From NCBI GenBank assembly GCA_017991615.1, contig JAGOQF010000006.1, forward strand, positions 1 through 39,545: 39,545 nt of DNA, read 5' to 3'. This document shows, piece by piece, positions 32,041 to 39,545 of the stretch. Position 1 is the stretch's first letter; each line of letters starts with the position of its first letter. The translations under genes and the position numbers were made by a program. The notes under the pieces are model-generated. The model was given only the letters and a program-made list of their open reading frames with translations. It made no database searches and was not told the DNA's origin. The stretch is from Candidatus Shapirobacteria bacterium (GTDB taxonomy: Bacteria > Patescibacteriota > Microgenomatia > UBA12405).

Positions 32041-32742
32041 ATGAAAGAAAAAATATCTTTGATAAAAACAAGAAGTAAGGGTTTTACTTTAGTGGAGTTG
32101 TTAATAGTGATTGCTTTGATTGCGATTTTGTCGGTGGCAGTGTTGGCAACGATTAATCCAATTGAACAAGCAAATAAAGCTAAAGATTCGACAATGCAAA
32201 ATGATGCCGCTGAGGTATTGAATGCTTATGAGCGTTACTATGCGGCTCAGGCATCTTATCCGTGGATTGATGTAGTATCAACATCAACTTTAACGGTAGA
32301 TTCGCCAGTTATGTTGAACAGTATAGTAGCTGGTTTTGGATTGTGTACGGTTGAGGCTGGGGTGGGGGCACCAACTGATGTGTGTTCTCCGAGAACGTCT
32401 CAAGGATTGTTAATTAGTACGACTGAGTTAAAGGATTCATTTTTGGAAAAAAATTATACAAAGAGTTCAGGTAATCCGAACAATCCGCCATTGTTTTCAG
32501 ATATGCTTTATTTAGTTAAAGATCCGGTGGCTCAAGGAAATTCGATTCATGTTTGTTTTATTCCCAAAGCTAAGGCAAACAGGACAGTTAATTCTAAGTT
32601 AAAAAATTTAGCAGTTGATGGCACTGGTTTTCCGACGCAATATGTAGATACGACAACGTCTGATTTTAGTGGTGGTTATCCGGATGCAGCAACTTGGAGT
32701 TTTCAAACTGCAGAAACTTCATTGTTTAAATGTGTACCTTAA
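32041..32742 (+). CDS. Type IV prepilin, probable major pilin
   Basis: 233 residues. Leader MKEKISLIKTRSKG is followed by FTLVELLIVIALIAILSVAV, with the peptidase site after Gly14 and the conserved Glu at mature position 5. The rest is a helical spine, then a globular head with two cysteine pairs (GLCTVEAGVGAPTDVC, and one late pair). It is the first pilin after pilC, the largest in the row, and is followed by an intrinsic terminator, which would favour its own expression over the genes behind it. The major role is inferred from that position. Confidence 0.9.
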   Translation: MKEKISLIKTRSKGFTLVELLIVIALIAILSVAVLATINPIEQANKAKDSTMQNDAAEVLNAYERYYAAQASYPWIDVVSTSTLTVDSPVMLNSIVAGFGLCTVEAGVGAPTDVCSPRTSQGLLISTTELKDSFLEKNYTKSSGNPNNPPLFSDMLYLVKDPVAQGNSIHVCFIPKAKANRTVNSKLKNLAVDGTGFPTQYVDTTTSDFSGGYPDAATWSFQTAETSLFKCVP

Positions 32743-32744
32743 AT

Positions 32745-32779
32745 TAGATTATAGATCGTAGATAGTAGATCATAGAGAG
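32745..32779 (+). repeat. Five phased 7-bp repeats (TAGATNN) after the pilin gene
   Basis: Starting 2 bp after the pilin stop, five consecutive heptamers begin with TAGA, at 32745, 32752, 32759, 32766 and 32773; four are TAGATNN and the last is TAGAGAG. They run straight into the terminator hairpin. A related TCAGATC array is found at the end of the window. Confidence 0.7.
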
Positions 32780-32786
32780 ATTGTGG

Positions 32787-32810
32787 AACCCGCCGATGAG
32801 GCGGGTTTTT
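32787..32810 (+). terminator. Intrinsic terminator between pilin and prepilin peptidase genes
   Basis: AACCCGCC (32787-32794), loop GATGA and GGCGGGTT (32800-32807) form an 8-bp stem followed by TTT. It lies 45 bp after the pilin stop, so it would end most pilin transcripts; the peptidase gene needs read-through or its own promoter. Confidence 0.85.
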
Positions 32811-32864
32811 GGTGGACATTTGTTTACCTCTTTTGGTAACAGGGGGAAGTTAGTACAATGGAGT

Positions 32865-33647
32865 ATGGAAAATTTAGCAAATATATTAGTGTTTGTTTTG
32901 GGTTTGTGTATGGGTAGTTTTGTAAATATGTTGGTTTACAGAACGGCGGTAAAATACAAATTAAAGGTTTATAAAGTTAGTAAAGTTAGAAAGAGTAGAT
33001 CGTTTTGTGATTTTTGTGGTCGACAGTTGGGGTGGTATGAAAATATTCCGGTATTATCATGGTTGGTTTTGAAAGGTAAAACCAAGTGTTGCCAAAAAAA
33101 GTTACCAGTCCTCTACCCTATCGTGGAAATTGGTTTGGGAATAATACTATTGATATTTAATTTAAAATATCCATGGTGGCAGATGGATGTGAAATGTTGG
33201 GCTTTGGGAGTATTAGTTTTAACACTAATAGTATTTTTGGCAGTTTTTGACTATAAGTATATGATTTTACCTGATTTTGCGGTGATTATGTTAATTATTT
33301 TGGCTTTGTTGAATTTGGTTTTTCATCAAGATAATCTGAGTAATTATTTGATATCTTCAATATCGGCGGCGGGATTATTGGCATTTTTGAACTTAATAAC
33401 CAAAGGGAAAGGAATGGGTTGGGGTGATGTAAAACTGGCGGTATTTATGGGATTGTGGTTGGGATATCCAAAAATTGTAACAGCAATGTACTTGGCGTTT
33501 GTAAGTGGAGCTGTGGTTAGCTTGGTATTGATTATTAAAAAATGGGCAACTAAGAAAAGTTTGATTGCTTTTGGACCATTTTTGCTGTTTGGGGTGGTAG
33601 TGGCTTGGTGGTGGGGTGATAATTTGTGGCAGTTGGTTTGGGGATAG
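32865..33647 (+). CDS. pilD: Prepilin peptidase (type IV leader peptidase)
   Basis: 260 residues from ATG 32865 (MENLANILVFVLG); the frame is open back to 32781, but that part lies over the terminator hairpin. It cleaves the prepilin leaders and may N-methylate the new N-terminus. Catalytic aspartates are Asp129 (VFDYKYMILPD) and Asp188 (GKGMGWGDVK). The N-terminal domain has GSFVNMLVYR and four cysteines, Cys48-x2-Cys51 and Cys75-Cys76; the second pair is adjacent instead of CxxC. About seven membrane segments. It serves the pilins on both sides. Confidence 0.95.
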   Translation: MENLANILVFVLGLCMGSFVNMLVYRTAVKYKLKVYKVSKVRKSRSFCDFCGRQLGWYENIPVLSWLVLKGKTKCCQKKLPVLYPIVEIGLGIILLIFNLKYPWWQMDVKCWALGVLVLTLIVFLAVFDYKYMILPDFAVIMLIILALLNLVFHQDNLSNYLISSISAAGLLAFLNLITKGKGMGWGDVKLAVFMGLWLGYPKIVTAMYLAFVSGAVVSLVLIIKKWATKKSLIAFGPFLLFGVVVAWWWGDNLWQLVWG

Positions 33648-39202: not shown

Positions 39203-39246
39203 TCAGTTTCTCAGATCTCAGATCCGCCGGTAGGCGGACAGGTTTT
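39203..39246 (+). terminator. Heptamer repeats plus terminator-like hairpin after the last pilus gene
   Basis: TCAGTTTC and two TCAGATC units (39203-39224) lead into the hairpin TCCGCC (39223-39228), GGTA, GGCGGA (39233-39238), followed after CAGG by TTTT. The layout copies that at 32745-32810. The T-run is short and delayed, so termination may be partial. Confidence 0.55.
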
Positions 39247-39254
39247 AGGAAAAC

Positions 39255-39345
39255 ATTTTAGCTTGACAACATTTTTGTCGTCCTCGCACCTTCGCCAGAA
39301 GGCCTCAGCGGCTTGCGGGCGAAAAAATATTGTCGGCGCTAAAAT
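39255..39345. repeat. 91-nt clover-like inverted repeat
   Basis: ATTTTAGC at 39255-39262 is the exact complement of GCTAAAAT at 39338-39345. Further in, GACAA, ATTTTT and TCG/CGA blocks also pair, with small gaps. The GC-rich core adds two inner hairpins, CCTTC-GCCA-GAAGG (39289-39302) and GCC-TCAGC-GGC (39302-39312), which share one base and so may compete. The overall shape is an outer stem with two branches, like an intergenic palindromic repeat or a small structured RNA. Confidence 0.65.
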
Positions 39346-39484
39346 TAGATGTCAGATGTCAGACAATTAGATCTCAGTTTGTCAGATCTCAGATCTCAGA
39401 TAGTTAGATCTCAGTTTGTCAGATCTCAGATCTCAGATAGTTAGATCTCAGATGTCAGATGTCAGATAGTTAGATCTCAGTTTG
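39345..39484. repeat. Tandem array of TCAGATC-type heptamers with a 37-bp higher-order repeat
   Basis: The array is built from TCAGATC, TTAGATC and TCAGATG units, mostly 7 bp with occasional 8-bp units. Two exact 37-bp copies occupy 39367-39403 and 39404-39440; a shortened 29-bp copy is at 39441-39469 and a partial one at 39470-39484. Each 37-bp copy is 7+8+7+7+8. There are no unique spacers, so it is not a CRISPR array. Confidence 0.9.
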
Positions 39485-39509
39485 TAAACTTTGTAACTAG
39501 GACAGGAGG

Positions 39510-39538
39510 TTGACAGGGAGGGAGGAAGGGAATATAAT
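39510..39538 (+). promoter_or_regulatory. Perfect consensus sigma-70 promoter
   Basis: TTGACA (39510-39515) and TATAAT (39533-39538) are separated by exactly 17 bp. Both hexamers match consensus at all positions and the spacer is entirely purine. It points rightwards to a gene or RNA outside the window, which should be highly expressed. Confidence 0.88.
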
Positions 39539-39545
39539 GTGGTTA

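Follow-up and report, generated by a model that had tools for sequence, protein, structure and literature searches.

Heptamer arrays beside two pilus-cluster genes of a Candidatus Shapirobacteria genome probably belong to two separate dispersed repeats

Two sites in a Candidatus Shapirobacteria contig, at both of which 7-bp repeats run toward a CCGCC/GGCGG hairpin behind a pilus-cluster gene, are not copies of one gene-end switch, and the two-part module that an earlier note had seen in them fails at the first site. We analyzed the whole stretch of 39,545 nt (contig JAGOQF010000006.1; hereafter the window), which has ~37% G+C and is contig C5 of a 677-kb genome. We consider it probable (roughly 80%) that the first site is a dispersed heptamer repeat (family A, TAGATNN) beside an ordinary terminator, that the second is a separate mosaic repeat carrying another heptamer (family B, TCAGATC/G), and that the arrays are of the STRR type. 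Rates given for a sample refer to 356 kb of the genome, taken as stretches, and whole-genome counts come from pattern searches. The features are listed in Table 1.

Table 1. Features at the two sites, in window coordinates.
Feature	Position	Strand	Basis or remark
Type IV pilin-like gene	32041..32742	+	Pfam N_methyl 1.6e-08
A-family array TAGATTA TAGATCG TAGATAG TAGATCA TAGAGAG	32745..32779	+	sequence read directly
Probable intrinsic terminator hairpin AACCCGCC-GATGA-GGCGGGTT with T5	32787..32810	+	fold and relatives
Prepilin peptidase gene (PilD/A24)	32865..33647	+	Pfam A24_N_bact, Peptidase_A24
Two B-family heptamers TCAGATC TCAGATC	39211..39224	+	sequence read directly
B-family hairpin TCCGCC-GGTA-GGCGGA, then CAGG	39223..39242	+	no U-tract; 11 near copies genome-wide
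89-bp imperfect palindrome TTTTAGCTTGACAAC...GTCGGCGCTAAAA	39256..39344	.	dispersed repeat accompanying arrays; fold z -3.4
Long B-family array (TAGATGTCAGATGTCAG...)	39346..39480	+	37-bp higher-order repeat

The A array begins 2 nt past the TAA stop codon of the pilin gene, and another 7 nt separate it from the hairpin, whose arms AACCCGCC and GGCGGGTT occupy 32787-32794 and 32800-32807; the second arm runs into T5 at 32806-32810. The five heptamers described earlier do keep perfect 7-bp phase, and four have the exact TAGAT core; the fifth, TAGAGAG, is imperfect. An array of at least four in-phase copies of any 5-mer (periods 6 to 12) occurs once in the window and in none of 100 dinucleotide shuffles. 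The array has no predicted structure and folds no better than its own shuffles (z +0.5). The hairpin bears out its description as a terminator: it folds at -17.2 kcal/mol (z -4.3), which 0 of 200 shuffles equalled, and it combines a stable GC-rich stem with a U-tract, the T5 being read directly. A consensus terminator scan did not list this hairpin, probably because A-T pairs consume the T-run. Other terminator-like CCCGCC/GGCGGG hairpins stand without heptamers in the same genome (C7:31270 and C7:108245). Positions 32787-32810 are therefore a probable intrinsic terminator, of which the neighboring heptamers are probably no part. A -10-like hexamer (TACAAT and variants) ends 5-6 nt before the pilD ATG (window 32854-32867), as for a leaderless mRNA; it is present in this genome and in most relatives read (L078, L080, L082-L084).

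We read the spacer between the pilin gene and pilD in seven relatives (G001, G002, G003, G004, G007, G008 and G016), five further relatives being excluded from the count since their pilD locus was not located by motif search; genome sizes of the relatives are 0.5-1.5 Mb. A hairpin with a T-run follows the pilin stop codon in six of the seven, the exception being G008, and a heptamer array is present in this spacer in 0 of the 7. Because relatives keep the hairpin without the array, and because the array is linked to no hairpin elsewhere, the first site reads as an ordinary terminator with a lineage-specific repeat alongside it.

The sample as a whole bears out that missing link. It contains 11 A arrays (at least two exact TAGAT), the one at 32745 among them, and only at 32745 does a GC hairpin come within 25 bp 3' of the array (1 of 11, against 11.7% of random intergenic positions); several arrays are inside ORFs. 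Heptamer arrays can fall within coding sequence, before or after genes, or next to a tRNA gene, and they favor no one position. Two of the three intergenic A arrays with at least three units start 2 nt past a stop codon. The TAGATNN family is thus dispersed independently of hairpins and gene ends, and on the earlier note's own terms the module idea fails for this family.

Short tandem repeats of this kind are widespread in the genome. In-phase pentamer triples in the sample number 87 at period 7 (control 0) and 88 at period 9 (control 0-2), and at periods 6, 8 and 10-12 they stay at background level (0-4). Detection that presupposes no core finds, at period 7, 19 arrays between genes and 13 in coding sequence, or 625 versus 40 per Mb, and at period 9, 13 and 9 respectively; periods 5, 8, 10 and 11 yield 0-1 arrays, and the 17 at period 6 are nearly all coding. 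The reversed-pattern control for the array search also matches TAGAT arrays and is not independent of it. Recurring units are TAGATNN (A), TCAGATC/G (B), AAGATTY, TACTAAA/TACCAAA and the 9-mer AAGTTYRTM. In five A arrays chosen by family, we counted 22 substitutions, 19 of which hit positions 6-7 of TAGATCG, a bias with a null probability <5e-6 if the changes are independent, an assumption that shared ancestry of variants may break.

At the second site, the TCAGATC heptamers were indeed found to run into TCCGCC/GGCGGA (39203-39246), two units adjoining the stem-loop at 39223-39238, which overlaps the second of them. The supposed sharing of one element by the two sites did not survive comparison. 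The units are TAGATNN at one site and TCAGATS at the other; the hairpins have different stems and loops, and one ends in U5 where the other has no such tail; and the array stands 7 nt from the hairpin at the first site but overlaps it at the second. The sequence 3' of the 39223-39238 stem is CAGGTTTT and lacks the U-tract of an intrinsic terminator, and a terminator scan found no site there. A search for known RNA families gave none at either site, the only Rfam matches in the window being two tRNAs.

Across the genome, the B hairpin, CCGYYNGTRGGCGGAYRGG, is present in 9 exact and 2 near copies, and all 11 directly follow sequence of the NAGAT/NAAAT type: TCAGAT, TTAGAT, TCAAAT or an AAGATTT/AAGAAT run. 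The claimed association of heptamers with a CCGCC hairpin therefore holds for the TCAGATC family. A general hairpin finder misses some B hairpins, so that its figure of 7/20 is too low and the direct copy list is preferred. In none of the copies read does the stem run straight into a U-tract, and one copy lies in frame within the LeuRS gene (C9:3928), where it reads NKISNPPVGGQVSDEE. These copies lend no support to a role in tuning termination at the second site, and the LeuRS copy, like the arrays inside other ORFs, contradicts a confinement to transcript ends. The other suggestion made earlier, a mobile intergenic repeat, gains support for the second site, except that the LeuRS copy is coding and not intergenic.

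On their 3' side, the B hairpins are followed by TCTTCAGGAAAAC, by the 89-bp palindrome or by another palindrome (CCCCTCTGTCCCGCAGTGGCGGGACATCTCCCC) in varying order, which indicates that the clusters are mosaics. The 5' end of the 89-bp palindrome has eight copies in the sample, and in copies with an intact 3' end, TTAGAT or TCAGAT units come next. The palindrome at 39256-39344 and the long TCAGATS array at 39346-39480, a higher-order repeat with period 37, 3.3 copies and 91% matches, were absent from the earlier note. A REP/RAYT origin of the palindromes was considered and is ruled against by a search for the Y1 (REP-type) transposase (PF01797), which gave no match in this genome while its controls were positive. 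About 65 bp lie between the long array and the contig end (window 39346-39545), which suggests that the assembly probably breaks in repeat-rich DNA. Behind the array, at the contig end (window 39510-39538), is a perfect sigma-70-like promoter (TTGACA-17-TATAAT, 12/12).

Protein genes of this genome and of relatives carry in-frame arrays too, among them those for RuvC, LeuRS, a MiaB-like protein, a ValRS-like protein and other ORFs (RuvC is named by Pfam; the names LeuRS, ValRS-like, MiaB-like and glycosyltransferase-like come from reading the translations). Within ORFs, nearly all B arrays are oriented in the stop-free TCAGAT sense, and nearly all A arrays antisense. The B arrays appear as SDLRSQI or SDVRSQM repeats in LeuRS, the ValRS-like protein, RuvC, a glycosyltransferase-like ORF and others; antisense A arrays encode the peptide STIYDLQ. 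In RuvC of this genome, a B array and 9-mers follow GWAVL, and at the same codon, RuvC of G001 carries a TAGATCG array in the sense orientation (L100), whose third unit, the sole one where TAG would be in frame, has TCG instead. RuvC of the other genus members read has neither array, the region being N in the G006 sequence. At the loop that reads NKISNPPVGGQVSDEE in this genome, a TCAGATC array gives NKISDLRSQISDEE in LeuRS of G003, and at one of the LeuRS loops with TCAGATC in G003, G008 (L138) has ATTACGA heptamers (peptide NYELRIT). As orthologous loops hold different units in different species, the arrays come and go, tolerated rather than conserved.

Beyond this genome, the B hairpin with its 3' flank was not found in 373 other genomes of the class, YAGATSN arrays of at least four units occur in one of 239 other genomes of the phylum, and CAGATS arrays occur in 8 of 35 genomes of the family, this one included. 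The module pattern, searched in GTDB genome contigs, gave one match, in Variovorax. Viral contigs contain TCAGATG/TCAGATC arrays in 13 stretches (L119-L131), some of them near inverted copies of their own unit.

Identical units at unrelated loci, the restriction to periods 7 and 9, the tolerance of stop-free frames and the independence of the A array from the terminator are observed directly, and they are what the preferred reading would explain. The first site is a dispersed array of TAGAT plus two free bases, lodged in the gap that separates the pilin stop codon from an ordinary intrinsic terminator; the latter presumably acts alone, as its hairpin is kept without an array in relatives. The second site is one copy of a mosaic dispersed repeat that joins TCAGATC heptamers to a hairpin without a U-tract, its parts (9-mer array, TCAGATS array, 20-bp hairpin and 89-bp palindrome) being combined in varying ways. 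Arrays survive where they are tolerated, in intergenic DNA and in protein loops whose frame is free of stops. Their spread is most likely due to the copying of existing arrays through recombination, repair or uptake of repeat-bearing DNA, and their changes in length to slippage; no role in termination or mRNA stability is needed. Three points weigh against this account. Pure slippage and neutral decay would not confine 19 of 22 changes to the last two positions unless variants were copied together, which leaves some room for selection on the core; two of the three longer intergenic A arrays share the start 2 nt past a stop codon; and spread by copying is postulated for a genome in which no Y1 transposase was found.

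A single 3'-end element of phased heptamers and GC hairpin, tuning termination or mRNA stability at both sites, is highly unlikely. It would fit the placement of both sites after pilus-cluster genes, with an array and then a CCGCC/GGCGG hairpin at each, and hairpin-capable 7-bp STRRs of cyanobacteria have been suggested to affect transcript stability (PMC2670836); however, A arrays are unlinked to hairpins (1/11), relatives keep the terminator hairpin with the array missing, and the B hairpin lacks a U-tract, sits once within coding sequence and, when searched together with its 3' flank, gave no match in the 373 other genomes of the class. At 32745, this element is largely refuted. Chance low-complexity sequence in an AT-rich genome can be dismissed almost entirely: at ~37% G+C, intergenic hairpins are frequent (2-5 per kb), but arrays of at least four units appear in 0 of 100 shuffles and only periods 7 and 9 are enriched.

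A further alternative takes the arrays as phased sites for a DNA- or RNA-binding protein, with the pentamer core selected and the two spacer bases free. The 19 of 22 substitutions in positions 6-7, the TAGAT core common to five unlinked loci and the binding-protein role proposed for TAACTGA repeats (PMC4679880) speak for such sites; their scatter over coding, upstream, downstream and tRNA-flanking positions and their loss at orthologous sites speak against them. The C/T change at position 6 is moreover common to several loci and may be inherited, in which case the substitutions are not independent. On balance, we regard this explanation as unlikely. Similarly doubtful is a bolder version of copying, in which a templated process, in this family of small bacteria, writes 7- and 9-base arrays of fixed core and free spacer bases (TAGATNN, TCAGATS, AAGTTYRTM) both between genes and into the stop-free frames of essential proteins, repeatedly overwriting loops such as those in RuvC and LeuRS with repeat peptides; either the machinery itself or a binding protein would hold the core constant.

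The reading of the two sites as separate dispersed repeats removes a false two-copy regulatory module and places heptamer repeats of the STRR kind in a reduced genome, where they also enter essential genes in frame. Cyanobacterial repeats long ago raised the question of how such arrays reach unrelated loci while the core stays constant and the spacer varies, and closely related genomes with array-bearing and array-free orthologues make it testable.

Among known elements, the 32787 hairpin resembles intrinsic (rho-independent) terminators: a GC stem closes a short loop, a U-tract follows, and the whole lies behind a stop codon and is retained in relatives. Rickettsia palindromic elements are palindromic repeats found in frame inside protein genes; compared with them as described, the in-gene parts here are heptamer arrays and a 20-bp hairpin, and far shorter. 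Many bacterial genomes show an over-representation of heptamer repeats, which have been little studied (PMC4692102). The GGGNATC and GGGGA(T/C)T repeats of Xanthomonas and Nostoc are likewise over-represented intergenic heptamer arrays whose length varies between close relatives (PMC4692102); they are G-rich and quadruplex-capable, whereas the arrays here are A/T-rich, and the one at 32745 has no predicted structure. The TAACTGA repeats of marine Beggiatoaceae share with ours heptamer direct repetition, many intergenic sites and stop codons in one orientation, which limits in-gene copies to the other orientation or to gene ends; inside ORFs, TAACTGA lies mainly at gene ends or in its stop-free orientation (PMC4679880). 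TAACTGA arrays are mostly just upstream of start codons, whereas those here can flank a gene at either end or interrupt the sequence of conserved enzymes, and the A units vary at two positions. The closest fit is with the heptanucleotide STRR type, a class set by unit length and arrangement: the arrays here are tandem, degenerate 7-bp units at many dispersed, mostly intergenic loci (625 versus 40 per Mb). Cyanobacterial STRRs are usually 7-bp repeats, hairpin-capable and with no known function (PMC2670836), and like them the present repeats form short 7-bp tandem arrays of several unit families per genome, sometimes near hairpins (PMC2670836, PMC4692102). They differ probably in their units (TAGATNN and TCAGATS), and further in a coexisting 9-bp family, in the small genome of the host and in the joining of one family to a fixed 20-bp hairpin and an 89-bp palindrome.
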